Source: Acidisoma sp. PAMC 29798 (lineage in GTDB: Bacteria > Pseudomonadota > Alphaproteobacteria > Acetobacterales > Acetobacteraceae). From it: DNA of 64,000 nucleotides. The stretch covers positions 62,001 through 126,000 of the forward strand of contig NZ_CP126995.1 in assembly GCF_030252425.1 (NCBI RefSeq), in the 5' to 3' direction. The position numbers were made by a program, and so were the translations under genes. Every line of letters begins with the position of its first letter. The first letter of the stretch is position 1. Below the pieces are notes generated by a model, which saw nothing but the letters and a program-made list of their open reading frames with translations, searched no databases and was not told the origin of the DNA. Below, piece by piece: positions 28,338 to 51,668 of this stretch.

Positions 28338-28958
28338 CCAGGATTTTTCCGCTCCCTCGCGTATCCGATCAGCTACCGCCAGCTCGAGGAAATGATGGCA
28401 GAGCACGGCGTCGAGGTGGACCATGCCACACTCAATCGCTGGGTGGTCAAGTATGTTCCTCTGTTGGATCGGGAGTTCCGGCCGCGCAAGCACCCGGTGG
28501 GTCCAAGTTGGCGAATGGACGAGACCTATGTCCGAGTCAAAGGCGCGTGGATGTACCGAGCCGTTGATAAGGCCGGAGCCACGGTAGATTTCCTTCTGAC
28601 TGCGAAGCGAGATCGCAAAGCCGCCCTGCGGTTCTTGCGCAAGACGATCAAGGGGAGTGGCACGCCTCAGAAGATCACGATCGACAAGAGCGGCGCCAAC
28701 ACGGCTGCGATTGTGAGCCACAACGCTAAATTCGGGGCGGCAATTGAGATCCGTCAGATCAAATACCTCAACAACATCGTCGAACAAGATCATCGAGCCA
28801 TCAAACGACTGGCGCGACCAATGCTCGGTTTCAAATCCTTCCAGTCAGCGGCGGTGACGCTTGCCGGCATTGAGCTCATGCATATGCTTCGGAAAGGCCA
28901 GTTGCGCACGACAGGCAACCTGTGTCCGGCGCAGCAATTCTATTCTCTGGCAGGATAA
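28338..28958 (+). pseudogene. IS6-family transposase, N-terminally truncated
   Basis: The frame can be followed from about 28338 (FFRSLAYPISYRQLEE) to 28958. The helix-turn-helix (VEVDHATLNRWVVKY), the catalytic DETYVRVKG, TIDKSGAN and EQDHRAIKRL motifs are present. The first 25 or so residues are lost, and the usual KYLYRAVDK segment is shortened to MYRAVDK, an in-frame deletion close to the active site. It is probably inactive. Confidence 0.8.
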
Positions 28959-29023: not shown

Positions 29024-30799
29024 TCACTGCGGCAAATAGCGTCGCATGATCTTCCCAGATCGGGTGCGGGGCAGGCTGTCCAGGAACACGACGCGCCGAA
29101 ACCCCGCGAAACCACCAATCTGCGCGCGCACTGCGGCCACGAGTTCCGCACGGAGATCGGTCACCGGGCTGTCTCCGACGCGCCGGACGATAAAGCCGAC
29201 TGGAACCTGCCCCCGCGCTGCATCGGCCCGGCCCGCAACCGCGCATTCCGCAACCTCGGGGTGCGCCGCCAACACCTCCTCAATCCGCCCGGCGGCGATG
29301 CGCCGGCCCGCAACCTTCAGCACATCATCGGTGCGTGACATGACATGCACCTCGCCACGCGCGTCAGTCATTCCCTGGTCGAAGGTTCGGTAATAGCCAG
29401 GAAACCGCGCCAGGTAGGTGGCCTGCATGCGCGCCTCCGCCTGCCACAGCGTGGTAAGGCAGCCCGGCGGAAGCGGCAGTTTTATGGCGAGTTCGCCCTC
29501 TGTCCCCGGCGGCAGAACCCCGCCGGTCTCGCCCAACACTACAAGGTCGAAGCCGATCGCGGCGCGACCCGCCGGCGTGTTCAGGCCGCGCAGCGACCCG
29601 GCGATGGCCGAGCCGGTTTCGGTTTGCCACCAGTGATCGCAGATCGGCACGCCGGCCGCGCCAGCCGCCCAGGTGAGCGTCGCCTTATCCGCCCGCTCAC
29701 CTGCCACGAAAACCGCAAGCAGGGCGGACAGATCGCAGCTACGCCCATGCGCGCCCTCGGGGTCTTCAGACCGCATCGCCCGCAACGCACTCGGCGAGGT
29801 AAACAGCAAGTTTACACCGTGGCGCGCGCACAGTCGCCACAGCGCTCCGGCATCCGGCGTGCCTGTCGCGCCGCCCTCATACAGTACGGTCGTGCAGCCG
29901 GTGAGCAGCGGCGCATAGACGGCATAGGAATGGCCGACCACCCAGCCGAGATCCGCTGTGCAGCAAAAGACCGCGCCTGGCTCGATGTCATAGACATGCC
30001 GCATCGATCGGCGCAGCGCGACGGCGTGGCCGCCATGGTCCCGCACCACGCCCTTCGGGTTGCCCGTGGTGCCGGAGGTGTGGAGGATGTAGAGCGGATT
30101 TGTCGCCGCGACCGGCACCGGCGCTATGGCCACTGACCGCGCCTCAACCTCGGCAAAGTCATGCACCCGCCCCGGGAGCGCCATCATCCGGCCACCGGGC
30201 CGCTGGAACACGATTGTCGCATCCGGCCGATGCGCTGCGATGCCCAGGGCCTCCGCCATCGCGGGCAGCAGCGATATCGCCCGCACACCCGTATAACCGC
30301 AGGTGGTAGTCACCACGACGCGGGGTGACGTGTCGTCGATCCGGGTGGCGAGTTCCGGCGCCGGGAATCCCGCGAAAACGAAGACATGCACGGCGCCCAG
30401 GCGCGCGGCGGCGAGCATGGCAATCACCGACTCCGGCACTGGCGGCATGCAGATCAGCACGCGGTCCCCCTGCTCCACGCCCAGCGCGCGCAACCCGCCC
30501 GCGAAGCGCGCCACGCGCTCGGTCAGCGCCGCATAGGTGAAGTGCTGCGTCCCCCCCGTGACCGGGCTTTCCCAAATCAGCGCCATCCGGTCGCCATCGC
30601 CCGCTACGACGTGGCGGTCGAGCGCATTGGCGCAGATGTTCAGCCGCCCATCCGGGAACCAGTCGGCAAGGCCGTCCGGCCTAAGCCGAAACGCGGTCTC
30701 GGGCGGCGTCTCCCAATCGATATCCTGTGCGGCGTCCAACCAATAGGCGGCCCTATCGGCCCGCCAGGCCGCAACCTCGGCGGTATAGAGGTTAGGCAT
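29024..30799 (-). CDS. AMP-dependent acyl-CoA synthetase (acetyl/propionyl-CoA synthetase-like)
   Basis: The start at 30799 (MPNLYTAEVAAWRADRAAYW) gives 591 residues. ANL-superfamily motifs are all present: P-loop-like TSGTTGNPKG, the aromatic-rich DHWWQTETGS, YYRTFDQG, RTDDVLKVAGRRI (hinge), and the acyl-adenylating lysine in PRTRSGKIMRR near the C terminus. It is closest in form to acetyl-/propionyl-CoA synthetases. It overlaps the flavoprotein gene by eight bases and is the last gene of the Nit1C operon, so it may activate the acid made by the nitrilase. It is not one of the seven core Nit1C genes I know. Confidence 0.88.
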   Translation of the reverse strand: MPNLYTAEVAAWRADRAAYWLDAAQDIDWETPPETAFRLRPDGLADWFPDGRLNICANALDRHVVAGDGDRMALIWESPVTGGTQHFTYAALTERVARFAGGLRALGVEQGDRVLICMPPVPESVIAMLAAARLGAVHVFVFAGFPAPELATRIDDTSPRVVVTTTCGYTGVRAISLLPAMAEALGIAAHRPDATIVFQRPGGRMMALPGRVHDFAEVEARSVAIAPVPVAATNPLYILHTSGTTGNPKGVVRDHGGHAVALRRSMRHVYDIEPGAVFCCTADLGWVVGHSYAVYAPLLTGCTTVLYEGGATGTPDAGALWRLCARHGVNLLFTSPSALRAMRSEDPEGAHGRSCDLSALLAVFVAGERADKATLTWAAGAAGVPICDHWWQTETGSAIAGSLRGLNTPAGRAAIGFDLVVLGETGGVLPPGTEGELAIKLPLPPGCLTTLWQAEARMQATYLARFPGYYRTFDQGMTDARGEVHVMSRTDDVLKVAGRRIAAGRIEEVLAAHPEVAECAVAGRADAARGQVPVGFIVRRVGDSPVTDLRAELVAAVRAQIGGFAGFRRVVFLDSLPRTRSGKIMRRYLPQ

Positions 30800-32051
30800 G
30801 GACGGCCACGCGGTCCGCGATACGCTCGGCGAGGTAGCCCGCGTCGCGCGACACGCCGGAGAAGCGACCGGAGCCCCAACTGTGCAGCCAGGGCAGGCCG
30901 AGGAAATAAAGGCCCGGCGTGCCGGTGACGCCGCGATAATGGCCGGGCATGCCGCGCCCGTCGAAGACCGGCACCTCGATCCAGCGGAAGTCGGCACGGA
31001 AGCCGATGCACCACACGATGCCGGTGATGCCCGCCGCCTTGAGGTCAAGGCTTCGTGCCTCCTCACTCGGCGTCCAGACCGGCTGATACGGCGCTTCCTC
31101 GGGCGCGCTCATACCACTCTTGGCGATAAAGCCGTCGACGCCGCGCTTGATGCTTTCTGAGACGGCGTCTGCGGAATCGAGATTCCGCGTCAGCCCTTCG
31201 CGAATCAGCAGCCGTCCGTCCTCATAGCCGTCGGCGCGGCCATAGAGGTGCATCCCCTCCAGCGCGCGCAGTCGCAGATCGATATCCCGACCGCCGTCAC
31301 GCCCCGTCACGTAATGGTTGGTATTGTCGCGCACCCCTTCCTTGAGGGGGTGGTTCTCCACGGGCATGTCGTAATAGCTCATGAGATCCAGCCAAGCGAC
31401 GACATCCCGGCCGCGATAGCGCCGCGCAACGCGCGGAGCCTCCCCGACGCACAGATGGACCTTCCGGCCGGCGATATGGAGATCCTCGGCGATCTGGCAG
31501 CCGGATTGGCCGGTACCCACCACCAGTACCGCGCCTTCTGGCATCTGCGATGGCCGAAGATAATCGGCGGAATGAACCTGCCCGATGCTGGGGTCGATGG
31601 CATAGGAGAAGCCTGGGCGGATGGGGTCGTGGTAGCCGCCGGTTGCCACCACGACCTGCGCGGCGGTGATCGGACCTGCATCCGTCTCCAGCGCGAAGCC
31701 GCCCTTCACCGGGCTCAACCGTCGCACGGAAACGCCGGCATGCACCGGTGGATCGAAGGATGCGGCGAAAGCTTCGATATAGCGCACAATATCATCTCGC
31801 CTCATGAAGCCCTCGGGGTCATTGCCGGCATAGGGGAAGCCCGGGAGTTGGCATTGCCAGTTCGGAGTGACGAGGCAGAAACTGTCCCAACGCTGCGCCC
31901 GCCAGGCGTGACCGATCGCAGATCGTTCCAGAAGGACATGATCGATTCCGGCCTGACGCAGATACCAGCTCATGGAAAGCCCGGCCTGGCCGCCGCCGAT
32001 GATTGCAACGGGGATCTCCGCTGGCAGTCGTGCCGCAGCGATCGCGTTCAA
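30792..32051 (-). CDS. nitH: MSMEG_0569-family flavin-dependent oxidoreductase (Nit1C)
   Basis: A 419-residue FAD/NAD(P)H monooxygenase-like protein: FAD motif IIGGGQAGLSMSWYL (residues 17-31), a NAD(P)H motif VVGTGQSGCQIAEDL (about 178-192) and a final FAD contact in FLGLPWLHSWGSGRF. It belongs to the flavoprotein family found in the conserved Nit1C cluster (nitH in Pseudomonas cyanotrophs). Its ATG overlaps the preceding gene by four bases. The reaction is not known to me; oxygenation of a nitrile-pathway intermediate is an inference. Confidence 0.87.
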   Translation of the reverse strand: MNAIAAARLPAEIPVAIIGGGQAGLSMSWYLRQAGIDHVLLERSAIGHAWRAQRWDSFCLVTPNWQCQLPGFPYAGNDPEGFMRRDDIVRYIEAFAASFDPPVHAGVSVRRLSPVKGGFALETDAGPITAAQVVVATGGYHDPIRPGFSYAIDPSIGQVHSADYLRPSQMPEGAVLVVGTGQSGCQIAEDLHIAGRKVHLCVGEAPRVARRYRGRDVVAWLDLMSYYDMPVENHPLKEGVRDNTNHYVTGRDGGRDIDLRLRALEGMHLYGRADGYEDGRLLIREGLTRNLDSADAVSESIKRGVDGFIAKSGMSAPEEAPYQPVWTPSEEARSLDLKAAGITGIVWCIGFRADFRWIEVPVFDGRGMPGHYRGVTGTPGLYFLGLPWLHSWGSGRFSGVSRDAGYLAERIADRVAVHA

Positions 32052-32347
32052 TGGGAGCCTCCATCCAAACGACGAAAGCCTGTGACTGTCACTCGGGACG
32101 CCGGGTCGAAGGCCAGTGCCCGCTGTTCCATGGCGGCGAGCGTTCCCAGCGCGCGGCTGCAGGGAAAGCCGTATTTCGCCTCCACCCGTGCGCTGGCCGT
32201 GGTCATCGCCGCGCGGGTCCGCTCCAGTAAATCTGCGAGAGGATAGGTTTCACCCGGCGTCAGATGATCTTCCACGACGAGGGAGGGCGAGTAGCAGGCA
32301 CTTTCCGCGCCATCGGGCCAGCGCAGGCCGAATTCCATTTCAGGCAT
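32048..32347 (-). CDS. MSMEG_0570-family nitrogen starvation response protein (Nit1C)
   Basis: A 99-residue protein, MPEMEFGLRWPDGAESACYS followed by PSLVVEDHLTPGETYPLADL, that matches the small conserved family found only in Nit1C clusters. It overlaps both its neighbours (four bases with the flavoprotein, eight with the glycosyltransferase). The N-terminal half has a predicted beta-sheet look and the second half is helical. No biochemical role is known; in published naming it should correspond to NitG. Confidence 0.82.
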   Translation of the reverse strand: MPEMEFGLRWPDGAESACYSPSLVVEDHLTPGETYPLADLLERTRAAMTTASARVEAKYGFPCSRALGTLAAMEQRALAFDPASRVTVTGFRRLDGGSH

Positions 32348-33440
32348 GGGTCAGGGTTTCCACATCGGCATAGGCAGGAAGATGAGCGGCCGCGACATCG
32401 CGCCAGGTGAAGCGGGCGGCGGTGCGCGGACCGGAGCTTTGCAACCGGTCCGCGATCTTGGGCCGAAGAGACTCCGCCATGGCGGTGGCGATGGAGGCGA
32501 CGTCGGTCGGATCGGCCCAGAGGCATTCGTGCGGCCGGAAATGCTCGTTGAAAGGCGCGATGTCGGAGACTATGACGGGGCGACCGCAGGCCATCGCCTC
32601 GATCGCGACAAGGCCGAAGCCTTCGGCGACAGACGGTGACACGACCGCATCAACGCGCCGGTACAGCGCCGGCATATCCTCATCTGCGATCACGCCCAGA
32701 CGATGAACGGCCGCGTTGCCGGCACAGAGCGCGTCGAAGGCCGCGCGGGTGGCACCATGATCCAGCAAGGTCGCGCCACCGGCAATCAGCAGCCGGGCGG
32801 TTGGATGCTGATCTTGCAAACTCAGGAAGGCGCGGAGGATGGACAGGCTGTTCTTGCGCGCCTCGATCCCGCCCATCGCCAGGAACAAGGGCCCTCGTGG
32901 CAGCGCCAATCGCGCGTCACCCGCTTCGGGGGCGGGTGTGAAGCGAGGGGTATCGACGCCATTGCCGACGAGCACGGTTACACGACCGGTTATGGCGGCA
33001 ATGCGATCGCCCCAGATACGGCTGACACAAAACAGCCGCTCTGCCGCGCGCATGCCCCGGTCCTGCCAGGCCGCCAGACGCGGATCGGCGAAGTCATCTA
33101 GGTGATGCACCGTGCGCAGGAATGGCCGCGCGAGACGATCGAGCGCATTGGCGCTGATCGGGTCCTGCGCATGGAAGATGTCGTAGCGCGCATTGCATAG
33201 GAAATCGGCGATCTCTTCGATGCGCTGCGCCACCATGGCGGCTGTCCCGCTCACCGGCACGGCGGGGATCAACCGATAATCGCAGCGGGGTATGCGAAAG
33301 AAGGTCTGGCCGGGCAGCGCGGGGGCGAGCAGCGTCACATCCTCACCCATGTCGCACAGTGCTTCGGCCAGTTGCATGGCATGAACCACTCCGCCGCGCG
33401 GATTGGTGGAATGGGTAAGGACGGCGATGCGGCGGTTCAT
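32340..33440 (-). CDS. MSMEG_0565-family glycosyltransferase
   Basis: A 366-residue GT4/GT-B glycosyltransferase: N-terminal HSTNPRGGVVHAMQLAEAL, middle GNGVDTPRF, and the donor-site region SPSVAEGFGLVAIEAMACGRPV with the EX7E pair (about 272-280). It belongs to the family linked with Nit1C in mycobacteria and other species but absent from some clusters. It overlaps the AIR-synthase-like gene by four bases. The presence of a sugar-transfer step suggests that the cluster makes a glycosylated small molecule, which is inference. Confidence 0.88.
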   Translation of the reverse strand: MNRRIAVLTHSTNPRGGVVHAMQLAEALCDMGEDVTLLAPALPGQTFFRIPRCDYRLIPAVPVSGTAAMVAQRIEEIADFLCNARYDIFHAQDPISANALDRLARPFLRTVHHLDDFADPRLAAWQDRGMRAAERLFCVSRIWGDRIAAITGRVTVLVGNGVDTPRFTPAPEAGDARLALPRGPLFLAMGGIEARKNSLSILRAFLSLQDQHPTARLLIAGGATLLDHGATRAAFDALCAGNAAVHRLGVIADEDMPALYRRVDAVVSPSVAEGFGLVAIEAMACGRPVIVSDIAPFNEHFRPHECLWADPTDVASIATAMAESLRPKIADRLQSSGPRTAARFTWRDVAAAHLPAYADVETLTHA

Positions 33441-34396
33441 AACGTGCCGCAGCCGGTCAGTGGCGTCTCCGCCAGATCCCAGAAAGTCTCGACGCTACCG
33501 TCATGCCGCAGATCGACGCGGGTGCCGGCCTCGCATCTGCCGATGACGGCGCAGGCGATGCCGCGGGCCGAAAAGATCGCCGTGACTGCCGGCGCATCGG
33601 CCTCGGTCGCCGTCAACAGAAAGCCGTAGCTCGGGAAGCTGGTCAGCCAGCGCTGCAGGTCCACGCCATCCGGGCGGGGCACAGCGTCGACATCGATGAT
33701 CAGGCCGATGGCGGAGCACTCGGCCAGCATCAGCGCTGTGCCGACGAGCCCGGCCATGGAGATGTCCTTAGCCGCGCGGCTGAGCCCGGCCTCCGCGATC
33801 TCCGCGAGCAGATCGAGATCTGCCCGTAGCCTGCCAGAATCGACTTGGGTGGAGGCGGAGTCCCAATAGGGATAGGGCTCGTGGTAGGCGCCGCGCAGGT
33901 CGATGGCAGCCAGCAGCACCTGCCCCGGCTTCGCGTCGAAACTAGTGAGCAGGCGGGATGCACGGCCGAGGATGGCGACCGAAAGCTGCTCCCCTGCGCT
34001 GCGAGTATTGGTATGGCCACCGATGACCGGAATGCCGTAGGCGGCAGCGGCAGCGGCCAAGCCCTCCAGCACCGGGGTTGCGTGATCCTGGTCGCGGCTC
34101 CAGATCGCATCCACGACGGCGATGGGTCGCCCGCCCATGCTGGCGATGTCGCTGGCATTGACCATGACGCCGCACCAGCCGGCGAACCAGGGCTCCGCCG
34201 CCACTAAGTCGGTCACGAATCCCTCGATGGCGAGCAACAGCCAGCCGTCCCTGTCCGGGATCGCGGCGCAGTCGTCGCCCAGGCGAATGCCAGCCGGCGA
34301 CAGACCGAGTTTCCGCACAACGGCTGCGATGTCGGTCTTGTGGGCGAGGCCCCGCTGCGCGCGCAAGGCCGACGTAAGGGATTGCGTCAACATCAC
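33437..34396 (-). CDS. nitF: Sll0787-family AIR synthase-like protein (Nit1C)
   Basis: A 319-residue protein with the PurM/ThiL/SelD-like ATP-binding fold: LGDDCAAIPDRDGWLLLAIE near 39-58, VNASDIASMGGRPIAVVD and the GGHTNT loop (about 120). Such enzymes form phosphorylated or cyclised intermediates with ATP. It matches the Nit1C family member of cyanobacteria (sll0787) and NitF of Pseudomonas. Four-base overlaps on both sides show tight coupling. Confidence 0.87.
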   Translation of the reverse strand: MMLTQSLTSALRAQRGLAHKTDIAAVVRKLGLSPAGIRLGDDCAAIPDRDGWLLLAIEGFVTDLVAAEPWFAGWCGVMVNASDIASMGGRPIAVVDAIWSRDQDHATPVLEGLAAAAAAYGIPVIGGHTNTRSAGEQLSVAILGRASRLLTSFDAKPGQVLLAAIDLRGAYHEPYPYWDSASTQVDSGRLRADLDLLAEIAEAGLSRAAKDISMAGLVGTALMLAECSAIGLIIDVDAVPRPDGVDLQRWLTSFPSYGFLLTATEADAPAVTAIFSARGIACAVIGRCEAGTRVDLRHDGSVETFWDLAETPLTGCGTL

Positions 34397-34962
34397 GCAG
34401 CCCGCTCTATCATTGGCCGCGCCACGGCTTGGCGGCCGATCAGGCTGGTGGTGTCGCGACCATGCGGCAGGTAATGCGCGAGGTCGACGCGCATGACGTG
34501 ATGCGCCCGGCCATGCAGATCAACCTCCCGCAGGCTCTCCCAATGCAGCCGGCGGAACAGGGACAGATTCTGCACCTGGACATGGGCCAGGAAGGTGCGG
34601 CAGCCGCGCTCGTTCGCCGTGCAGACGGCCATGCGGATGAGTTCAGCGCCCAATCGGCCGACGCGGCGATGCGCCTCATCCACGCCCAGGCGCGACCCCC
34701 ACCACAGCCCCGGCTCCGCCTCATGGATGCGCACGACGCCCACCACTTCCTGCGGCGCAGCGGCAATGCAGGTCACGGCAACAATCGTCGTTGCAACTTC
34801 ATCGATCGCATCAGCGTCGTCATCCGCGAAGATGCCCTGTTCAGCGCAGAAGATTTGTCGCCGCAGCCGATGATGCCCAGCGCGCTCCCAGGCCTCGGAG
34901 GCGAGCCGGATGCGATACTCTCCGGGGATGAAGGTGCGGATCGGCGCATCATACAACAGCAT
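34393..34962 (-). CDS. nitE: MSMEG_0567/Sll0786-family N-acetyltransferase (Nit1C)
   Basis: A 189-residue GNAT-fold protein with FCAEQGIFADDDADAIDE near 38-55 (an autoinducer-synthase/PEP-CTERM-like start), VVGVVRIHE and the acetyl-CoA loop region SRLGVDEAHRRVGRLGAELI. It belongs to the acetyltransferase family of the Nit1C cluster. It lies three bases after the radical SAM gene and overlaps the AIR-synthase-like gene by four. Confidence 0.86.
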   Translation of the reverse strand: MLLYDAPIRTFIPGEYRIRLASEAWERAGHHRLRRQIFCAEQGIFADDDADAIDEVATTIVAVTCIAAAPQEVVGVVRIHEAEPGLWWGSRLGVDEAHRRVGRLGAELIRMAVCTANERGCRTFLAHVQVQNLSLFRRLHWESLREVDLHGRAHHVMRVDLAHYLPHGRDTTSLIGRQAVARPMIERAA

Positions 34963-34965
34963 GCG

Positions 34966-36087
34966 TCAGCCCTCGTAGGAGGAGAGCGAGGAGCACGCGC
35001 CGCATTTCGTGCAGCCGGCTTTCACCTCGGTCGACCGCAATCCGGCCGCGGTCAGCATCCGGCCGAGCGGCGCCAGCACCGACCGCATGAAGTCAGGCGT
35101 CGGCGGCGCGTGGTGTTCGAGCGGCGTGCCCGTGATCGGCACGAATGGCACCACAAAGGGATAGACGCCGAGCGCCACGAGTTGCTCGCACAAGGCCAGG
35201 ATCTCGGCAGCGGTATCGCCGAGGCCCGCAAGCAGATAGGTGCTGACCTGCCCACGCCCGAAGACCGGCACCGCCTGTGCAAAAGCCTCCAGATACCGAT
35301 CGACCGATACGGTCGCCTTTCCCGGCATGATGCGCGCCCGTACTGCCTGGGTCGCGGCTTCCAGATGCATGCCCAGGGTATCGACGCCGGCATCGCGCAT
35401 ACGCCCATACCAGGCGTGATCGCGCGGCGGTTCGCACTGGCCCTGAATGGCGAGATCGACAGCGTCTTTGATGGCGACCGCACTGTCGCACAGCAACGCG
35501 GCACCGCGATCGATCACGTTCGGCGTGCCCGTAGTCATGACCATATGCTTGACGTCGTCGAGCAGTACGGCCGCGCGGGCGACCTCGGCCAGTTGCGCGG
35601 GCGTCTTATGGGCGATGGTGCGCCCGGCTTCCAGGGACTGGCCGATCGCGCAGAACTGGCAGGCGGTGTGGCGATCAGTATAGCGGATGCATGTCTGCAT
35701 GACCGTTGTGGCCAGCACATCAGCGCCATGCAGCACGGCGATCTTCCAGTATGGGAGACCGTCAAGCGTTTGCAGGCCGTAGAAGCGCGGCTGCTTGGGG
35801 AAGGTGATGCGGCCGACGGTCGCACCATCCCGCAACAGGATGCTGCCGCCGGTCACATCCGGCAGCGCCGCCTCGAACGGTGAGGTGCGGGCCGTACCGG
35901 TATAGATCGGCACCATCACCGTCTGCCCGGCGATGGTGATGGCCTTGTGGTCTGAAGGCCCGGCCCCACCCCGGCGCCCGGAGGCACCGGTATCGGGATC
36001 AGCCAGTCGCAGCCCAAGGGATTGCAGATCCGTGATCAGGCTCCGGCTGCTCGGCGGCATGTAGGTCACGTCTGTGTTGGTCTGCAT
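34966..36087 (-). CDS. nitD: MSMEG_0568-family radical SAM protein (Nit1C)
   Basis: A 373-residue protein of the biotin-synthase-like radical SAM type. The probable 4Fe-4S cysteines are Cys133, Cys143 and Cys146 (C-X9-C-X2-C), unlike the common CX3CX2C. A second cluster of cysteines at the very end (Cys359, Cys362, Cys365) could hold an auxiliary cluster. Core strands ([26 protein letters not shown]) fit the TIM-barrel. The start at 36087 overlaps the nitrilase gene by 89 bp; a later start is possible but [10 protein letters not shown] resembles other family members. Confidence 0.87.
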
Positions 36088-37030
36088 CCGCGTCGCTCCG
36101 GTTGGGGGCTCGGGTCATGGGCGTTTCGGCTGCATCGCGCAGCACCAGGCTGAGCAGTTCCGGCCGTGCGTAATGGCCGACGCTGTCCATCATCCGTTTG
36201 CGCTTGGTGATGAGCGACATATCGAGATCGGCGATGACGACGCCTTCGCCCTCGCGCAGTGGCGTCGCCAGGTGCACGCCCTCCGGCGAAATGATGGCAG
36301 TGTTGCTGCCGCCGCGCAGCGCGCGCTGCATGGCCGGATCGAGTGTGATCGATTGGATCTGTGATTCCGTCAGCCAGCCGGTGGCGTTGACCACGAAACA
36401 ACCGCTTTCCAGCGCATGGTGCCGGATCGTGACCTCGATCTGATCGGCGAAAATCGGACCTACCATTGAGCCCGGAAACTGACCTGCATGAATTTCCTCG
36501 TGCTGCGCCATAAGGGCGTAGCGCGCGAGAGGATTATAATGCTCCCAGCAGGCCAGCGCGCCGATACGGCCGACGGCACTCTCCACCACCTTTAATCCGC
36601 TGCCATCGCCCTGGCCCCAGATCATGCGTTCATGGAACGTCGGCGTGATCTTCCGCCGCTTGAGCAACATCGCGCCGTCCACGTCAAAGATGATCTGCGT
36701 GTTGTACAGCGAGCCATGGTCACGCTCATTGACACCGAGCACGATGACCATGCCGTGCTGTCGCGCGGCATCGGCCACCGCATCCGTCGCCGGCCCCGGC
36801 ACCGTCGGTGCATTCTCATAGAGGCGCATATGCTCGCGCCCCATGGAGACCGCCGGTAGCACGAAGGAGAAATACGGATAGTAGGGCACAAAGGTTTCAG
36901 GAAAGACCAGGAAGCGCACGCCTTCGCGTGCCGCCTCCCCTATTGCGCGCAGAACCTTCTCCACGGTACCGTCCGCGTTCTCCAATACCGGAGAGAGCTG
37001 AGCCGCCGCCGCTCGGATGGTCCTGTGCAT
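35999..37030 (-). CDS. nitC: Nit6803-family nitrilase (Nit1C)
   Basis: A 343-residue nitrilase with the catalytic triad Glu45 (FPETF), Lys127 (LKRRKITPT) and Cys161 ([10 protein letters not shown]), hydrolysing a nitrile to an acid and ammonia. It resembles the Nit6803 group from Synechocystis, the hallmark of Nit1C clusters; in Pseudomonas the orthologue NitC is required for growth on cyanide as a nitrogen source. The last 30 residues (from about 310) are low-complexity and polar and lie in the overlap with the radical SAM gene, so the end may be extended relative to relatives. Confidence 0.9.
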
Positions 37031-37041
37031 CGTCCTGGGCC

Positions 37042-37524
37042 TCAGACCGTCCAGGAATCGATGACGAAGGCGTTGTCGCGCTTGTGCAGCAACATGCAGT
37101 CCAGCACGTCCAACGGGCTGATCGGGCGAATGCCGGGAATCAGCGATCCCTCACCATGGCCGTAAAGCGCCTGGAGCGAGAATCGGCAGGCGAAGACCTT
37201 GCCGCCCTCCTCCATGAACTTCTTGATCTGGTTATTGAAGTTCTGGTGGCCGGGGAACGCATCATCGCCCAGGCGGGGAAAGCCGCGCAGCACGCCGAGC
37301 GTCACGCCGGGCCCATAGAGAAGAACTGTCGTCTCGAAGCCCTTGCGCTGCAGGCGCGTAGCCTGGAGCAGGTTGACCAGGCCGATAGAACCCTCGAAGG
37401 CGACCGTATGAAATGACACCAGGGCCTTCTGGCCGGGTTCCGCCTTTACGTCCTCGAAGACCTTCTCCTCATAGTCGACGAGGTGGTCTCCGATCTCGTG
37501 TCTTAGCTTTTCGACCTTGGGCAT
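37042..37524 (-). CDS. nitB: MSMEG_0572/Sll0783-family nitrogen starvation response protein (Nit1C)
   Basis: A 160-residue protein ([20 protein letters not shown] ... [20 protein letters not shown]) that belongs to the small conserved family leading Nit1C clusters, named after Sll0783 of Synechocystis, whose mutation alters nitrogen-starvation responses. A DsrE-like fold is plausible from [12 protein letters not shown] and [13 protein letters not shown]. It is the first gene of the operon, 11 bp before the nitrilase gene, and its 276-bp upstream gap carries the promoter and palindromes. Confidence 0.87.
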
Positions 37525-37579
37525 CTCGCGCGTCCTTCTCGCTGTGCGGCGTTCAGGAAGCAGCGGTCAGGGCGGCCTC

Positions 37580-37604
37580 GCAATCGGGACAATGCAGCCC
37601 GATT
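37580..37604. promoter_or_regulatory. Candidate operator upstream of the Nit1C operon
   Basis: Perfect 8-bp inverted arms, CAATCGGG and CCCGATTG, are separated by 9 bp, 56 bp before the nitB start. A second, imperfect repeat (TCATAAAATC at 37609-37618 and GATTTATGA at 37636-37644) lies just upstream. The MocR gene at 37801 is the natural candidate regulator. Binding is inferred. Confidence 0.5.
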
Positions 37605-37800
37605 GATCGTCATAAAATCCGTACAATAACAGACAAGATTTATGAGATGCCGACAATATCATGGACAAGGATGGTCGCGATGCCTGGGGTGGTCGGATCC
37701 TGAGCGGTAGCCGACTAAGACAGCATCGTGTTGATCAAAATTTAAGCGGATTTTTACGGATGGCTGTTAGACATTTGGCATCACGTTTCCGTGACGGGTT

Positions 37801-39240
37801 CTAGACAATATCTGCATAAATTTGCGGCACCGGCCGCCGGATGGCACCTGCCACCGCGTTCAGTGCCGTGGCGAGTGCGTCGCGATCCTCGGCGGCGCCA
37901 AGGGCGATGCGGACATGCCCTAGGCCCGGCTGGGCACCTTCGACGGTAAAGGCACTCTCAGGCACCAACGCCAGGCCTTGGCGGCGGGCATAGGCGGCAA
38001 ATTCCGCAGAATCCCAATGCGGCGGCAGGGGCAACCACAGATGCAGCCCCTCGGGATGAGCCTGCGCTTGCTCTTCGGTCAAGATCGACGCCGCGAGCGC
38101 TTGCCGGACCACAGCTTCCCGACGGATCGCCAGGAAGAGGGCCTCGGCCTCTCCACTCCTGATCCAGCCTGTGACAAGGGTGATCAAAAGCGCGGAGCCC
38201 GTCTGCACGGTGCCGCGCAACGCCGCCGTCAGCCGGTCGACCTGGGTGCCGCTCGGCACCACAAGATAAGCAACCCGCAGACCGGGGGACAGCGTTTTGG
38301 CGAGGGTAGCGAGGTGAAAGACTATGTCGGGGCCGAAGGTCGCCAGCGCCGGAAGGCATGCGGTTGGGAACAGCCCGTAGGCGTCATCTTCCAAGATCGG
38401 CACGGCATGGGCGCGCGCGATCTCAACCACGGCCTGCCGCCGCGCGACGGACATTGTAGCGGTCGTCGGGTTCTGGATTGTAGGGGTACAGACAATCAGC
38501 CGCGGCCGGCTCTCATGGCAGACGCGGTCGAGGTCCTCAGGCAGCATCCCTTCTTCGTCCATCGCCACGCCGACCAGCGTGATCCCGAGTTGCGCGGCCA
38601 TCGCCCGTAGGCCGGGATAGGCGAAGCGCTCGGTCGCCACCACATCTCCCGCGCGGGCGAGCGAGGTCAGCACCACCAGCATGCCGCTCTGCGCGCCAGG
38701 GCAGATCAGCAGCCGCTGCGGATCGACGCGGCCCATGGTGCGGGCCAGCCATTGCGCCCCAGCCTCGCGGTCCTCCGCGCTGCCGGTATCCCAGTGATAG
38801 GTCATCAGCGCCGCCAGATTCTGGCGCCGCAGCATGCGCGCCAGCCCCTCCTGCAGCATGACGCGCAGGGACGGATCCGCCGGTAGCGGCGGCAGGTTCA
38901 TCGTCATGTCGATGAGCGGGTGGGTCCGGTTGCGCTGCCGCAGCTGCGGCGCGTCCGTCCGCACGAAAGTGCCCCGACCCACCGTCGCGGTCAGCAATCC
39001 CTGACGATGCGCCGCCGCATAGCCGCGCGTCACGGTCGCCAGATCAACCCCGAGATGGCCCGCGACGGAGCGATGTGTCGGAAGCCGGTCGCCCGGAAGC
39101 AAATGACCGTCCCGGACAGCATCCGCGATGGCGGCAGCGAGTTCACGGTAGATCGGTCCAGTGCGGCCGCTCAGGTTGGGGAGCCATCGCGGCGATGGAT
39201 CAGCGGAAGTCGTTCGTCTCGCCGCCATCTGGGCTCCCAT
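37801..39240 (-). CDS. MocR/PdxR-family regulator (GntR helix-turn-helix fused to aminotransferase domain)
   Basis: A 479-residue fusion. Residues about 20-90 form a GntR winged helix (GDRLPTHRSVAGHLGVDLATV, given from its start), and about 120-470 a fold type I PLP domain with the PLP-binding lysine in LATLAKTLSPGLR (about 315) and PILEDDAYGLF. MocR proteins sense PLP-bound amines or amino acids. A second in-frame ATG at 39228 has a better-placed GGGAGC and may be the true start. Same strand and 276 bp upstream of the Nit1C operon, it is its probable regulator. Confidence 0.9.
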   Translation of the reverse strand: MGAQMAARRTTSADPSPRWLPNLSGRTGPIYRELAAAIADAVRDGHLLPGDRLPTHRSVAGHLGVDLATVTRGYAAAHRQGLLTATVGRGTFVRTDAPQLRQRNRTHPLIDMTMNLPPLPADPSLRVMLQEGLARMLRRQNLAALMTYHWDTGSAEDREAGAQWLARTMGRVDPQRLLICPGAQSGMLVVLTSLARAGDVVATERFAYPGLRAMAAQLGITLVGVAMDEEGMLPEDLDRVCHESRPRLIVCTPTIQNPTTATMSVARRQAVVEIARAHAVPILEDDAYGLFPTACLPALATFGPDIVFHLATLAKTLSPGLRVAYLVVPSGTQVDRLTAALRGTVQTGSALLITLVTGWIRSGEAEALFLAIRREAVVRQALAASILTEEQAQAHPEGLHLWLPLPPHWDSAEFAAYARRQGLALVPESAFTVEGAQPGLGHVRIALGAAEDRDALATALNAVAGAIRRPVPQIYADIV

Positions 39241-39399
39241 CGAGGTGCTAGCCTGAAAAAATTCTCTTACAAGACCGCGGCAAGATGCAGGCCAGCCGAG
39301 TAACGGAGTGGAAATCGTCGCTCTCTGCGAGCAATCCTATTGTGCATAAGTCCTGCTCGCCAAAAGCTTGAGTGACCGATGACCTGCCTGCCAGCAACG

Positions 39400-40479
39400 C
39401 TACCACCATGTCGTCTTTTGTAGTCCGTAATATAGTCCCATCAGGGTTATGAGGGATCCTGTGTAGAGCACTGCAACAGACATCGTGGACCGAATTGCAG
39501 TGCCGCTCGTTGGCAGGATCGTCGCCTGCAGGCGGGTTGGCCCATGCATGACAATGACGAGAAAGATCGCAATGATGGGTAGATGGCCGAAGGCATCCAA
39601 CTTGCCGAATTCTGGGATAGCTGAAATAAATATCAGCATGAAGAGAAGCGCGCCAGGCCGAAGAAGAGTGCGTCCGACAACAAGATAGAAGGCCAGGCTG
39701 AACTCGACGAAACCCGCTGTAAGGGTGACGAAGGAAGACGGAAACCCCAAGGTGATATCGGGATGAACGGCAAGGACGATGTCGGTCCATCCGGGGTAGA
39801 GGAACTTCTCGATCGCCGTCCACATGAGGCTGAACCCGAGCGTCCCCGTCAGAAGGGGGACTCTCCAAAGTCTGTTCCGTCGGATCCACTCGAAGTCTGG
39901 TGAGCTCAAGATGAGGTAATTCGCGAGCCCGAGGAAAAAGACGTAGTCCACCATGTGGAACAGGCCGTAGCGCGAGACCCCGATGCAATAGAGGACAATC
40001 AAACCAAGTCCCGCAAGGGGACATGTCCGCCGAAGAATCAACATCGCCACCACGGAAAGTTGTACTATTGAAACTAAGGCATCTCGATCAAAGAGATCCG
40101 GCGTCAAAATCGCACCATCTCCTGTTTTCGCCCATGGAACAACGGCCATTGAACTCCAGAGGCTCAGCGCGTATCCGCCGACACCAAGCCGAATGACGAG
40201 TTCCTCGATGATTTCGAGTTGCGCACTATGGCCAGGTAAACGGGGCCATTGTCTGAGGACGATCGCGTCTAGTAGAGATCCTGCGGACACAAGGGCGAGA
40301 AAGGTAACGCCCCGGCCGAAGAAAGCGGCGGATAATACGGTGTGTAGGGGAAGCGGAGGAACCCTCAGATCAAGGGCGCCGCAAAACCATTTAACGTGTG
40401 CATTCGCATGGTTGGGAAATATGACGAGGGCGGGGAACAACAAGAACAAGATAAAGGCGAAGTGCGGCTTTCGGTGCAT
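39400..40479 (-). CDS. Polytopic membrane protein of unknown function
   Basis: A 359-residue protein with an N-terminal hydrophobic signal/anchor (FAFILFLLFPALVIFPNHA) and about nine further hydrophobic segments spread to the C-terminal end. After the first segment is AHVKWF, and conserved-looking polar residues include WTAIEKFLYPGW and HPDITLG. This pattern suggests a DoxX-like or uncharacterised inner-membrane family, but I cannot name it. GC content is visibly lower than in the flanking genes, hinting at separate origin. Confidence 0.75.
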   Translation of the reverse strand: MHRKPHFAFILFLLFPALVIFPNHANAHVKWFCGALDLRVPPLPLHTVLSAAFFGRGVTFLALVSAGSLLDAIVLRQWPRLPGHSAQLEIIEELVIRLGVGGYALSLWSSMAVVPWAKTGDGAILTPDLFDRDALVSIVQLSVVAMLILRRTCPLAGLGLIVLYCIGVSRYGLFHMVDYVFFLGLANYLILSSPDFEWIRRNRLWRVPLLTGTLGFSLMWTAIEKFLYPGWTDIVLAVHPDITLGFPSSFVTLTAGFVEFSLAFYLVVGRTLLRPGALLFMLIFISAIPEFGKLDAFGHLPIIAIFLVIVMHGPTRLQATILPTSGTAIRSTMSVAVLYTGSLITLMGLYYGLQKTTWW

Positions 40480-40573: not shown

Positions 40574-41034
40574 GGTTCTATTGTAAGTGCTGGCGGAAGA
40601 CGCGCCAACCTGTATCCGGCCCGATGTCGGCGATCTCAAGCTACTATTTGAAAGAGGTCTGCAACGAATCCGGTCTGCGCCTGCCTGTTACGACCGCCGA
40701 TGTTGTGGACCTGTCCCTTTCGGATCATCGCCACTGCTTCGTAGCTGGCCAGCGTTCGTCGGGCGGTCGGCAGACTTCCGAAGCCGAGCCCAGGCCTCAC
40801 CAGCCGCTTTATTAGTCGATGATCTTGCTCGACAATATTGTTGGGGTATTTGCATTGTCGCAGCCGCGCGAAGTGCCACAACTCGCGTCTACGCTTCATC
40901 TCTGCGGTGGCACGCGGGTAGGCCAGGTTCTTGTCGACGATGATCGTGCGCGGATTGCCGGTATGAACCCGCGCCAATGCTTTGTGTATGGAACGCTTTC
41001 CGGGCTCGCGGCAAAGCCTCGTGCAACCGCGCAT
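40574..41034 (-). pseudogene. IS6-family transposase, C-terminal fragment
   Basis: Minus-strand coding (about 40636-41034) resembles the second half of IS6 transposases: NPRTIIVDKNLAYPRATAEM, NNIVEQDHRLIKRLVRPGLG and the typical MIRKGQVHNIGGR end. The N-terminal half with the first catalytic Asp is missing. A degenerate IS6-like terminus (GGTTCTATTGTAAGT) reads inward at 40574. Confidence 0.75.
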
Positions 41035-48867: not shown

Positions 48868-49737
48868 TCACTGTGGCGCGACGCCGCCGATCACGGCGTC
48901 TTCTGTCGCCCGATGCGCGAAGGACATTGGACCGTAATCCTCCTCCTGCTCGATCGCGAGCACCCCTTCCCTGGCAAGTTCCAGCCCGGCCAGCAGCGTG
49001 CTGGCGACGGCGGCCCGCGCTCTGAGGTCGCGGTTTGCGACGTCAGCCGAGATCGCCGGCAGGAACGCGCTCAATTCACCGCCCTCAGGATGCTCCGCCA
49101 AGGTCAACCTGATCCGCGCCAATGCATCCGTCACGCGCCAAAGATCTGGAATGACTGGCTGGTAGGGAGGTGCCTCGTCCGGCCGCCCTCCCCTGCCCCG
49201 CAGCACGACCAGACAGGCTTCCATCAGCGCGACATAGCCACCCTCCCGCGATGGCGCCGTCGCGGCAGGCCGCGCGAAGACGTCGGTCCCGAGTTGCGGC
49301 CGCGCCGTCAGCCAGGCCGCGGCGGCACGCACAAAGACCATCTCCTCAAGCCGCCGTACTTCGGCAGCGGCGTCCTGCTCCGCCGCGATCGCCGCTTCCG
49401 GGCTGGCGGGGAACAAGAGCCTGGACCGCAGCAACACAAGCCGGGTGGCCAGCACGAGCCAATCCGCCCGATGTTCGAGAGACACGCGGCCGACCAACCG
49501 CTCCATGCTGGCCACGAATTGCTCGGCCAGGTCGCGGATGGACATCCGGCCAAAGTCGATCCGCTGCCGCTCGGCGAGATCCAGCAGCAGGTCCATCGGC
49601 CCGTCGAAACCGTCGAGATGCAGCATCGGCATCTCGGCCACCCGGGGCGGCGTGCTCCAGTCATCCCAGATGGGATCACCTGATCCCTCGGCGGCGTCTT
49701 CCTCCCGCTCCTCCCCTACCGTCGGCCCATCACTCAC
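48868..49737 (-). CDS. scpA: ScpA-like segregation/condensation protein
   Basis: A 289-residue kleisin of the ScpA family: the N-terminal motif FDGPMDLLLDLAERQRIDFG (about 43-62) and RADWLVLATRLVLLRSRLLF are diagnostic. In chromosomes ScpA links the SMC heads with ScpB; no ScpB gene is found here, and the protein may work with a host partner or alone. It is the last gene of a recombinase-unknown-ScpA unit, overlapping the preceding gene by eight bases. Confidence 0.85.
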   Translation of the reverse strand: MSDGPTVGEEREEDAAEGSGDPIWDDWSTPPRVAEMPMLHLDGFDGPMDLLLDLAERQRIDFGRMSIRDLAEQFVASMERLVGRVSLEHRADWLVLATRLVLLRSRLLFPASPEAAIAAEQDAAAEVRRLEEMVFVRAAAAWLTARPQLGTDVFARPAATAPSREGGYVALMEACLVVLRGRGGRPDEAPPYQPVIPDLWRVTDALARIRLTLAEHPEGGELSAFLPAISADVANRDLRARAAVASTLLAGLELAREGVLAIEQEEDYGPMSFAHRATEDAVIGGVAPQ

Positions 49738-50332
49738 CGCCGTAATCCGGCCTGATGTCGACGATCAGCCTGGTCCAGCGCTGACGTACGGCCTGCATCG
49801 CCGCCCAGGGCGTCCAGTCGGCCGACCAGAACGCGACTTCGAACCGGGCCGAGCGGCGTAGCCGGCGATCGTCGCTCCCCGTCTTCAAGCGGACATGGCG
49901 GAGCGCCTGCACCACGCCCCAATGGGTCCGCAGCCAGGCCAGGCTGGCCGGGTCGTCCGGCCCAAGAGCGAGGACGCAGTCCGGCACCGGCAGCAGCGCA
50001 TGCAGGTCGAAGGGACAGCTGCGGACGCGGCCGATCGCGGCAGTGACCCGCTGCTGGTTGGCCTCGATGGCGCTGCGGATCTGCCGCGCCAAGGCCCGCG
50101 CGCCGGACAGAGTGAGTCCGGTGGAACCATCCGGCGGGTGGACCAGTGCCATCACCCGGTCCTCCTCAAGCAGATCGAGGTCCGGGGACAGCCAGGGAAT
50201 GGCGCCGAGTCCGGCCGCCGCCATTTGAAATGTTGCGACATGCTCCGCCGGCCCGCTGACGATCAGGACATGCCGCAGCCAATCCGTGTTCGGCAGTGAC
50301 AAAACATCCCCGTCACGTGTCATGGGTTCCAA
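49730..50332 (-). CDS. Conserved hypothetical between recombinase and ScpA genes
   Basis: A 200-residue protein of mixed alpha/beta look (LRHVLIVSGPAEHVATFQMA near 19-38). No known domain is evident. It overlaps scpA by eight bases and follows the recombinase gene after 112 bp, so the three probably act in one process. MTRDGDVLSL at the second Met (about 50323) is an alternative start. Confidence 0.7.
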   Translation of the reverse strand: MEPMTRDGDVLSLPNTDWLRHVLIVSGPAEHVATFQMAAAGLGAIPWLSPDLDLLEEDRVMALVHPPDGSTGLTLSGARALARQIRSAIEANQQRVTAAIGRVRSCPFDLHALLPVPDCVLALGPDDPASLAWLRTHWGVVQALRHVRLKTGSDDRRLRRSARFEVAFWSADWTPWAAMQAVRQRWTRLIVDIRPDYGGE

Positions 50333-50444
50333 GGGCCTCTGGCCTTTGGCGGGTGCAGGGCGGAGCAGCCAAAGGTTCCGATCGGCGTGTTGACGCCGGT
50401 CGGAAGGGCTGCGGAGGGAGCGCCCTGCCGCTGCCTGGCCACTC

Positions 50445-51530
50445 TCACAAATCCAGCAAGCGGGCGGGGTTCTCGCCGGTGATCTTGGCCCGGCGGCGAT
50501 AGCCGCGCAGGGTCGAAAGGTCTTTCTGCCGGGTATGGGCCATCACCTGCTCGTCCGGCGCGGCGGCCAGATAGGCCTCGGTGATGAAGCCGGCGCGCAA
50601 CCCATGCGGCGACAATCGCTCACGGGGATCGACGGTCAGACCGGCGAGTGCGGCGCGGCGCAGCAGGATTTTACGCACGCCATCCGTCGTCAGCCGGTTC
50701 TCCAGCGTGCCCCAGGCGGTGACGCCACGGAACACCGGACCATGGGTGATGCCGGCGCGTTTCAGGAAGCGTTCGACGGCCTTCACGGGGCAAGTGTCCT
50801 CGCCGCGCATCCAGGGGATGGTGACATCGGCCCCCTGCCCTTCCTGGTCGCGTTTGCTGCGTGGGATGTGGATGCTGAGCCCCACCTCCTGAAACGTCAG
50901 GTGCTCGCGGTCGATCGCCACCAGCTCCGAACGCCGCAGCGCCCCGGCAAAGCCGGTCAGAAAGAGCGCGCGATCCCGGACCCCCGCGAGATCCTCGCCA
51001 CAGCTCCCGAGCAGCTGGCGGATTTCCGTGGAGGTCAGGGCGGCCGAGGGACGGATCGGCTTGCCATGCTGTTTCAGGATGCCCTGCAGGGTCGCACTGA
51101 TCGCCGGATGGCGCGTGCTCCAGAGATGCCCGTTCTGATGATGATGGTGGGCGATGGCAGCCAGCCGGGCCCGCAACCCGCTCTTGCCCAGCGCCGGCAC
51201 CAGACTGGCGAGATAGGCCGCGACCAGCACCGGATGCACCGGCAAGATCGCCGGGTTCACCGCCTGGGTCCGGCACCAGGCGACGAAGGCGCGCCAATCG
51301 CGCGCATAGGCGCGCTGTGTCGAGGCGGCCAGATGGTTATCGGCGAAAGTGGCGGCGGTCTCGATCGCCTGGCCGAGCGGCCCCGACAGCAGCGCCAGCA
51401 TCTCCGCCGAGGCCGGCGAGGCCGGCGCCATCCGGCCGACGATCGCGAGCGCCGAGGCCTGGCTGGTTGCGGGCGCGTCCAACGGGCTAACGGCCGCCGA
51501 CACGGGACCTTCGGAGGGAGGTGCCGTCAT
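50445..51530 (-). CDS. Tyrosine-type site-specific recombinase
   Basis: The start at 51530 (MTAPPSEGPVSAAVSPLDAP) gives 361 residues. The N-terminal SAM-like core-binding region includes AASTQRAYARDWRAFVAWCR, and the catalytic domain has Arg in GFAGALRRSELVAI, HGLRAGFITEAYLAA, a late His/His-like HTRQKDLSTLRGYRRR with the nucleophile Tyr near 341. It is close to Xer/phage-type plasmid recombinases and probably acts on the palindrome at 51669-51692, 139 bp upstream of its start. Confidence 0.92.
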   Translation of the reverse strand: MTAPPSEGPVSAAVSPLDAPATSQASALAIVGRMAPASPASAEMLALLSGPLGQAIETAATFADNHLAASTQRAYARDWRAFVAWCRTQAVNPAILPVHPVLVAAYLASLVPALGKSGLRARLAAIAHHHHQNGHLWSTRHPAISATLQGILKQHGKPIRPSAALTSTEIRQLLGSCGEDLAGVRDRALFLTGFAGALRRSELVAIDREHLTFQEVGLSIHIPRSKRDQEGQGADVTIPWMRGEDTCPVKAVERFLKRAGITHGPVFRGVTAWGTLENRLTTDGVRKILLRRAALAGLTVDPRERLSPHGLRAGFITEAYLAAAPDEQVMAHTRQKDLSTLRGYRRRAKITGENPARLLDL

Positions 51531-51668
51531 GCCGCGCCGTCGCTCCGCATGAACCCCATCGCCCGCTCCTTCATCAGGCCGCGGCGCGTGACACCGCACC
51601 CGCCTGCCCCGAGCCGATTCTGCCAGACACGGGGCAATTGTGGCAACTGGCTTTCTTCATATGCGACG

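Follow-up and report, generated by a model that had tools for sequence, protein, structure and literature searches.

Why a Nit1C gene cluster should end in a gene for an acyl-CoA ligase is the question raised by a locus of Acidisoma sp. PAMC 29798, which lies within the window analysed here (the whole stretch of 64,000 nucleotides, positions 62,001 to 126,000 of contig NZ_CP126995.1; coordinates below are counted from its first letter). The reading we prefer, at a probability of about 0.42, is that a pathway for taking nitrogen from cyanide or nitriles has been extended by a ligase that activates the acid released by the nitrilase NitC, and has shifted from control by nitrogen limitation to control by a MocR-type regulator. 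The evidence that carries it is that the ligase gene occupies the same place behind the cluster in 40 of the 48 other Acetobacteraceae genomes that could be assessed, that these ligases form a clade of their own, and that a sigma-54-type promoter site precedes nitB in 16 of 17 ligase-less loci and in 0 of 43 loci with the ligase. The cassette, a complete Nit1C set in a lineage-specific form, consists of nine same-strand genes on the minus strand (29024-37524), arranged head to tail, and a regulator gene upstream of them, which is its tenth member:

37801..39240, minus strand: MocR/GntR-type regulator with an aminotransferase-like domain (EhuR-like), tenth cassette member (NCBIfam EhuR, 417.1 bits; Pfam GntR and Aminotran_1_2)
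37525..37800, minus strand: gap between mocR and nitB with three TTGT[AC][CGT]G sites, a candidate MocR operator; no sigma-54 site
37042..37524, minus strand: nitB, MSMEG_0572/Sll0783 family (TIGR04044, 270 bits, cut-off 109.85)
35999..37030, minus strand: nitC, Nit6803-type nitrilase (TIGR04048, 562.9 bits, cut-off 502.6)
34966..36087, minus strand: nitD, radical SAM protein (TIGR04043, 581.3 bits)
34393..34962, minus strand: nitE, GNAT acetyltransferase (TIGR04045, 230 bits)
33437..34396, minus strand: nitF, AIR-synthase-like (AIRS) protein (TIGR04049, 456 bits)
32340..33440, minus strand: glycosyltransferase, MSMEG_0565 family (TIGR04047, 417.7 bits, cut-off 259.85)
32048..32347, minus strand: nitG, MSMEG_0570 family (TIGR04042, 117.1 bits)
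30792..32051, minus strand: nitH, MSMEG_0569 flavin-dependent oxidoreductase (TIGR04046, 642.6 bits)
29024..30799, minus strand: acyl-CoA ligase of a Nit1C-specific clade beside PrpE, 591 amino acids (profile scans, Pfam, tree, residue comparison)

From nitB to the ligase gene the spacing is +11, -89, +3, -4, -4, -8, -4 and -8 bp. In an NCBIfam profile scan of the cassette proteins, in which the ligase was scanned as a 645-amino-acid reading of its frame, eight of the nine proteins exceeded the cut-off of their family (TIGR04044, TIGR04048, TIGR04043, TIGR04045, TIGR04049, TIGR04047, TIGR04042 and TIGR04046), and the seven families that make up Nit1C (nitB, nitC, radical SAM, GNAT, AIRS, nitG and flavoprotein) are contiguous on one strand. 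An earlier note on this DNA, made from the letters alone, had described nine contiguous, mostly overlapping genes holding the Nit1C set, a glycosyltransferase of the MSMEG_0565 type and, as last gene, an acetyl/propionyl-CoA-synthetase-like enzyme; measured spacing and family scores bear out the gene set, the TIGR04047 score over its cut-off does the same for the glycosyltransferase, and the last gene does encode an AMP-forming ligase with a PrpE-type pocket. The MocR gene had been missed. NitC is a Nit6803 (subfamily 1) nitrilase whose near-invariant positions include E45, K127 and C161, which we take to be the Glu-Lys-Cys catalytic triad of nitrilases. In NitD the near-invariant cysteines are C133-x9-C143-x2-C146 and C359-x2-C362-x2-C365, and the C-terminal CX2CX2C motif beside the CX9CX2C motif suggests that the protein may hold a second iron-sulphur cluster. 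The glycosyltransferase is already known from Nit1C and is not new here, because Podar 2005 (PMC1199592, accessible text) places it between ORF5 and ORF6 in Burkholderia and Rubrivivax.

Comparable loci were gathered through nitB, counting TIGR04044 matches over the cut-off. These were found in 10 of 385 genomes of the class, 4 of 5 genomes of the genus and 19 of 200 genomes of the family (own genome counted in each time, the family set overlapping the genus set), in 52 of 397 genomes of a larger family draw that overlaps the 200-genome draw, in 13 of 246 genomes drawn from the phylum of a Streptomyces genome and in 3 of 369 drawn from the class of a Neptuniibacter genome. The locus regions compared were 9 others from the class, 19 others from the family, 13 actinobacterial, 3 gammaproteobacterial and 32 new loci from the larger family draw; matches under the family cut-off were dropped (L017/G340, L084/G536, G1285, G1306 and the gammaproteobacterial L126-L129). 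The fresh set, from the 397-genome draw, was drawn after the rules described below had been formed on the first set, and it does not amount to 30 independent tests because it contains many genomes closely related to those of the first set. Loci whose contig ends before the place of the ligase (L053, L100, L193, L216), or within or before the flavoprotein gene (L144, L145), were left out of the ligase counts, and the first-set sigma-54 count covers 30 loci that do not include L053, L100, L144 or L145. Two named plasmids (L119 and L120) stand outside the 48 genomes and, together with the window, inside the 43 ligases. A ligase of 26% identity near L045 and a 45-bit ligase in L131 were not counted as Nit1C ligases.

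Leaving the window aside, the gene directly behind the flavoprotein gene is the ligase gene in 12 of 18 assessable first-set genomes of the family and in 28 of 30 of the fresh set, which answers how often it is adjacent, a check that the earlier note had proposed; the ligase-bearing genomes span six genera by group code. Ligase dN/dS is 0.07-0.23 in five pairs, and 0.03-0.37 in the remaining genes once one pair with saturated dS is set aside; the values of the pair that includes the window are rough because its dS is high (0.85-1.5). The ligase is therefore kept under constraint and is under purifying selection. With its place kept, its single clade and this selection, the ligase part of the earlier claim that the genes form one pathway is upheld: the gene belongs to the operon. 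In the other direction, 27 loci retrieved with the ligase as query proved to hold PrpE-like or more distant ligases, and tblastn found no Nit1C core gene in their flanks, some of which are short.

The protein carries the Pfam domains ACAS_N, AMP-binding and AMP-binding_C and the A10 lysine, which place it in the acyl-CoA ligase superfamily. Its start is most likely the ATG at 30799, not the listed open reading frame (ORF) start at 31066, giving 591 residues and an 8-bp overlap with the flavoprotein gene. In the 645-residue reading it scores best on propionate--CoA ligase models and reaches the cut-off in none of the 25 families listed; as a PrpE equivalog it falls short, at 523.6 bits against 827.4 for TIGR02316 and 550.6 against 955 for PRK10524. 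The closest solved chain is 5gxd, which we take to be DmdB. When placed in a tree beside 25 PrpE-like and 9 Acs rows (quick method, some long end branches), the 15 Nit1C ligases form one clade (15/15, SH-aLRT 99, stem 0.62) outside the PrpE-like clade that includes the family's standalone PrpE, and their subgroups are the same two as in the core-gene trees. Family genomes such as L098 have ligases that hardly differ from the one on the Komagataeibacter plasmid. Nit1C ligases have 588-603 residues, against mostly 623-647 in PrpE-type ligases. All 43 (15 + 28) retain the A10 lysine, and at the positions of Acs V310/T311/V386/W414 (numbering and pocket roles are those we presume for Acs) they read V/V/A/W as PrpE-type ligases do, in 15/15 and 28/28. 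K495 and R499 are private to them, in 43 of 43, with N and H there in all 34 PrpE/Acs rows; these two residues presumably belong to the A8 region, which is close to the CoA side in solved structures.

In Pseudomonas, Nit1C has a sigma-54-dependent regulator, NitA (accessible text of PMC11049912 and PMC8567248). Among the 14 first-set loci with a divergent MocR gene and no ligase, 13 show in the mocR-nitB gap a forward sigma-54-type site that matches at 9 to 11 of 11 positions (L051 lacks one). Two of the 13 are individually weak at 9 of 11 (L092 and L099, equalled by 9 and 5 shuffles in 100). The site is also present in L095, which has a same-strand MocR gene and no ligase. None of the 15 first-set ligase loci has the site. 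In the fresh set it is absent from all 28 ligase loci and present in the two ligase-less loci that could be assessed (L203, L204); a 9-of-11 match without the GG core in ligase locus L215 was not counted, and a 10-of-11 match in L093 lies on the opposite strand and could not drive nitB. Outside the gaps, 10 sites with at least 10 matches occur in 1.26 million strand-bases of the same loci. In the window no such site was found before nitB, the best forward match being 7 of 11 with 94 of 100 shuffles as good. This criterion comes from our own comparison of loci and is not a published defining feature of Nit1C. Absence of rpoN was tried as the cause of the missing promoter and rejected as a general one, because 8 of the 13 ligase-bearing genomes searched, the window's own among them, do have rpoN; it was not found in the other five, all family genomes with the ligase-type cassette (G565, G570, G517, G457, G524). 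A six-gene tree of 44 chosen loci requires 2 changes for the ligase, 3 for the sigma-54 site and 3 for MocR orientation, and sigma-54 goes the opposite way to the ligase in nearly all pairings of both ligase contrasts.

The MocR/GntR-type gene lies 276 bp upstream of nitB on the same strand. Its product has the two Pfam domains of MocR proteins and, among the near-invariant positions of 30 loci, K315, presumably the lysine that binds pyridoxal phosphate (PLP); it does not reach the EhuR type, for which NF052286 has a cut-off of 480 bits. Of 65 alpha- and gammaproteobacterial loci, 63 have a relative next to nitB, the exceptions being L144 and L198. The sites in the window have their 5' ends at 37656, 37636 and 37626 on the minus strand, 20 and 10 bp apart. 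In the first set, 16 loci with a same-strand MocR gene hold 36 forward and 12 reverse TTGT[AC][CGT]G sites, against 3.6 +- 1.9 expected in both directions, and 14 divergent loci hold 4 against 2.5 +- 1.6; this excess is partly one of choice, because the pattern was read from words in those loci. In the fresh set at least one forward site occurs in 29 of 29 same-strand loci and none in two divergent loci. Repeats of a related ATTG type occur in the divergent loci (31 forward and 7 reverse, with 5.9 +- 2.4 expected), a pattern chosen after looking and counted in first-set loci only. A scan for sigma-70 promoters and terminators over 37000-39700 gave nothing clearly above shuffles. In P. pseudoalcaligenes a MocR is the proposed repressor of the cio cyanide-resistance cluster (PMC8567248, accessible text).

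We also considered a rule that the ligase goes with a same-strand MocR gene. In the first set it held for 12 of 12 ligase loci, L095 being the sole assessable same-strand locus without the ligase. As a strict rule it was rejected, failing in the fresh set in L203 and L204 (same-strand, no ligase), L205 (divergent, with ligase) and L198 (ligase, no MocR), where the sigma-54 rule, unlike it, held.

In the pathway that we favour, cyanide would give rise to a nitrile, for instance a cyanohydrin or a compound like it, from which NitC would release ammonium and a small carboxylic acid by hydrolysis. The ligase, with its PrpE-type pocket, would convert that acid, of about C3, to its CoA ester, which would recover the carbon and pull the reaction forward. 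The operon would be induced by its own substrate through MocR instead of by nitrogen limitation through sigma-54. The CoA ester would make the carbon usable, and freeing such an operon from nitrogen control would make sense. In Komagataeibacter and near relatives the cassette has a gene for a cytochrome bd-type oxidase as its neighbour (L120, 15974-18565), and another, at 56% identity, occurs in a different place in L096 (6245-7585). Oxidases of this type are often cyanide-insensitive, and such neighbouring genes would fit exposure to cyanide.

Several other explanations have been weighed against this pathway, and the ligase itself admits two of them. It might be an unrelated gene dropped behind the flavoprotein gene by the neighbouring insertion sequence (IS), an outcome that the earlier note had named as fatal to its own reading. 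An IS6-type gene fragment (28392-28958) does lie 65 bp past the ligase stop. With the ligase keeping its place across the family, in some genomes on contigs of several megabases, and with matching ligase and core-gene trees, we regard such a placement as very unlikely, and it is rejected as the origin of the gene. Alternatively, the enzyme could be the cell's propionate/acetate ligase, which came to stand behind Nit1C and serves ordinary acetic-acid-bacterial metabolism. The PrpE-type pocket speaks for this, as does the finding of a second PrpE-like gene (over 45% identity, E 1e-100) in 0 of the 12 ligase-bearing genomes tested, with none in the own genome. Among eight genomes of the family in which no cluster ligase was seen, G415, G416, G427 (contig truncated) and G580 have a standalone PrpE at 52-53%, and the other four (G387, G388, G470, G560) lack one. 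The two private residues, the position of the Nit1C ligases outside the clade of the family's standalone PrpE, the fixed place, the gene start that in the window overlaps nitH, and joint inheritance with the core genes all count against an ordinary housekeeping role, which we consider unlikely; as a simple story of a relocated family PrpE it is rejected on the evidence of the tree.

The remaining explanation, biosynthesis, is the earlier note's own view, with a small nitrile-containing or cyanide-scavenging compound as the suggested product; it keeps the ligase in the operon and changes its task. In a biosynthetic pathway the ligase would make a special acyl-CoA, the GNAT enzyme would transfer the acyl group to a product of the radical SAM protein, the AIR-synthase-like protein, the flavoprotein and the glycosyltransferase, and the nitrilase would trim or salvage. 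The 13 actinobacterial nitB loci favour this, with a NitC-type nitrilase in none, a radical SAM relative in 12, an AIRS relative in 10 and a GNAT relative in 8 (L133, L137 and L139 lie near a contig end), and they suggest that the cluster does more than hydrolyse. The GNAT protein has a weak FeeM-like match (E 6e-4, below the Pfam cut-off), and the gpr operon of M. smegmatis alters the NADPH/NADP ratio and peroxide resistance (PMC6039565, accessible text), effects that hydrolysis alone does not explain. On the opposite side, the glycosyltransferase and the ligase are both optional, and P. pseudoalcaligenes needs its nit1C cluster in order to assimilate cyanide (PMC8567248, accessible text). 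No further gene is generally conserved around the ten when ORFs of at least 80 amino acids common to at least three of 30 loci are considered, those shared being shadow ORFs of core genes, stretches from near relatives and LysR-like genes in six scattered loci. We judge biosynthesis rather unlikely, and it stays alive because of the enzymes that hydrolysis leaves unexplained and the actinobacterial loci without a NitC-type nitrilase. In those loci (L130-L142) the best nitrilase match is at 27% (L131); other CN-hydrolase-like proteins occur in L130, and L132 contains a gene resembling CoA-disulfide reductase.

A number of points weigh against the cyanide or nitrile pathway extended by the ligase. 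There are just two independent ligase contrasts in the tree (sign test p 0.5), so chance may still account for the exclusion between ligase and sigma-54 site, and many of the fresh loci come from close relatives. The ligase-less L095 and L204 fall between two ligase clades in the core tree, and the ligase was therefore either lost there or acquired twice. It is missing in 8 of 48 assessable family genomes with nitB, in all 8 assessable loci of the class outside this family and in the one assessable gammaproteobacterial locus (L143); because such loci exist within and outside the family, the ligase is not needed for the core function. The radical SAM, GNAT, AIRS and glycosyltransferase proteins have no role in a scheme of hydrolysis plus activation, and the flavin enzyme is likewise unexplained by it. 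We infer the link to a small acid from pocket likeness and precedent, and we likewise infer that MocR acts at the cassette; ligase-bearing L198 has no MocR gene within 3.6 kb upstream, and ligase-bearing L205 has a divergent one and no TTGT[AC][CGT]G site.

The cassette lies on contig C2, a replicon of 204,534 bp, and the window carries genes for RepA_C, RepB/ParB, a ParA-type ATPase and a MobA/VirD2-type relaxase. An apparently mobile replicon, as the earlier note had it, is thus well supported by replication and partition genes and a relaxase. IS6-type (DDE_Tnp_IS240) pieces flank the cassette, the second at 40636-41034; a fresh composite transposon is not supported, because the sole match found between the two pieces is 73 nt at 77%. 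The ten-gene order is also found on named plasmids of Acetobacter oryzoeni and Komagataeibacter saccharivorans. An ScpA-like segregation gene and a tyrosine recombinase lie near Nit1C in the window (48868-51599) and on the Komagataeibacter plasmid L120 (24421-28403), and the two plasmids possibly share a common backbone. Within the own genus, one genome (G388, locus L086) has the divergent, ligase-less, sigma-54 type, the window and loci L085 and L087 have the ligase type, and one genome has no nitB match; the mixture of types suggests that whole cassettes are exchanged there.

Nit1C is tied to growth on cyanide, and a dedicated ligase in one branch would limit the released product to a small carboxylic acid, so that the identity of the CoA ester would be a direct handle on the Nit1C product. 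As a second handle, the difference in promoters leads one to expect that Nit1C responds to a lack of nitrogen in one branch and to its own substrate in the other. Vinegar bacteria, too, carry the cassette on plasmids, and the five genomes without an rpoN match have it in the ligase form. A wider proposal, which we hold to be speculative and quite unlikely to be right, is that acetic-acid-type bacteria have turned Nit1C from sigma-54-driven scavenging under nitrogen starvation into substrate-induced, full catabolism of nitriles or cyanide, with the ligase recovering the carbon and MocR serving as a PLP-based cyanide sensor. The PLP would sense cyanide or a cyanide-derived amino acid, through an adduct with cyanide or an aminonitrile or through an external aldimine (for example with 3-cyanoalanine).

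In the literature searched, which was mostly without subscription journals and in part accessible only as excerpts, no description of a CoA ligase or a MocR regulator in Nit1C was found; the exclusion between sigma-54 site and ligase is new in this analysis. Ligases of the PrpE/DmdB type, acting on propionate and methylmercaptopropionate, share their domains, acyl pocket residues and A10 lysine with the Nit1C ligase; the Nit1C ligases differ in forming a separate clade, in being mostly shorter and in having K495/R499 where the others have N/H. An acyl-CoA synthetase is reportedly present, in work by Hashimoto in 2005, in a nitrile-degradation cluster of Pseudomonas chlororaphis B23. A CoA ligase there reportedly closes the route from nitrile to acid, as proposed here, and the enzymes before it are aldoxime dehydratase, nitrile hydratase and amidase, not a Nit1C nitrilase; this likeness is by description only, and the precedent would suit catabolism at least as well as the making of a nitrile or cyanide scavenger. 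Related genes in M. smegmatis make up the gpr operon (MSMEG_0565-0572), which depends on GlnR and belongs to nitrogen starvation (PMC6039565, accessible text). It has the same gene families as the cassette in the window and differs in its GlnR control, in its peroxide-resistance phenotype and in that no CoA ligase is named in the accessible text of that report. With nitBCDEFGH of P. pseudoalcaligenes CECT 5344 (accessible text of PMC11049912 and PMC8567248) the window shares the same seven families in the order nitB-C-D-E-F-(glycosyltransferase)-G-H on one strand, the glycosyltransferase being optional according to Podar 2005, and it differs from that cluster in having an additional acyl-CoA ligase, a MocR regulator in place of NitA, no sigma-54 site and a location on a plasmid.

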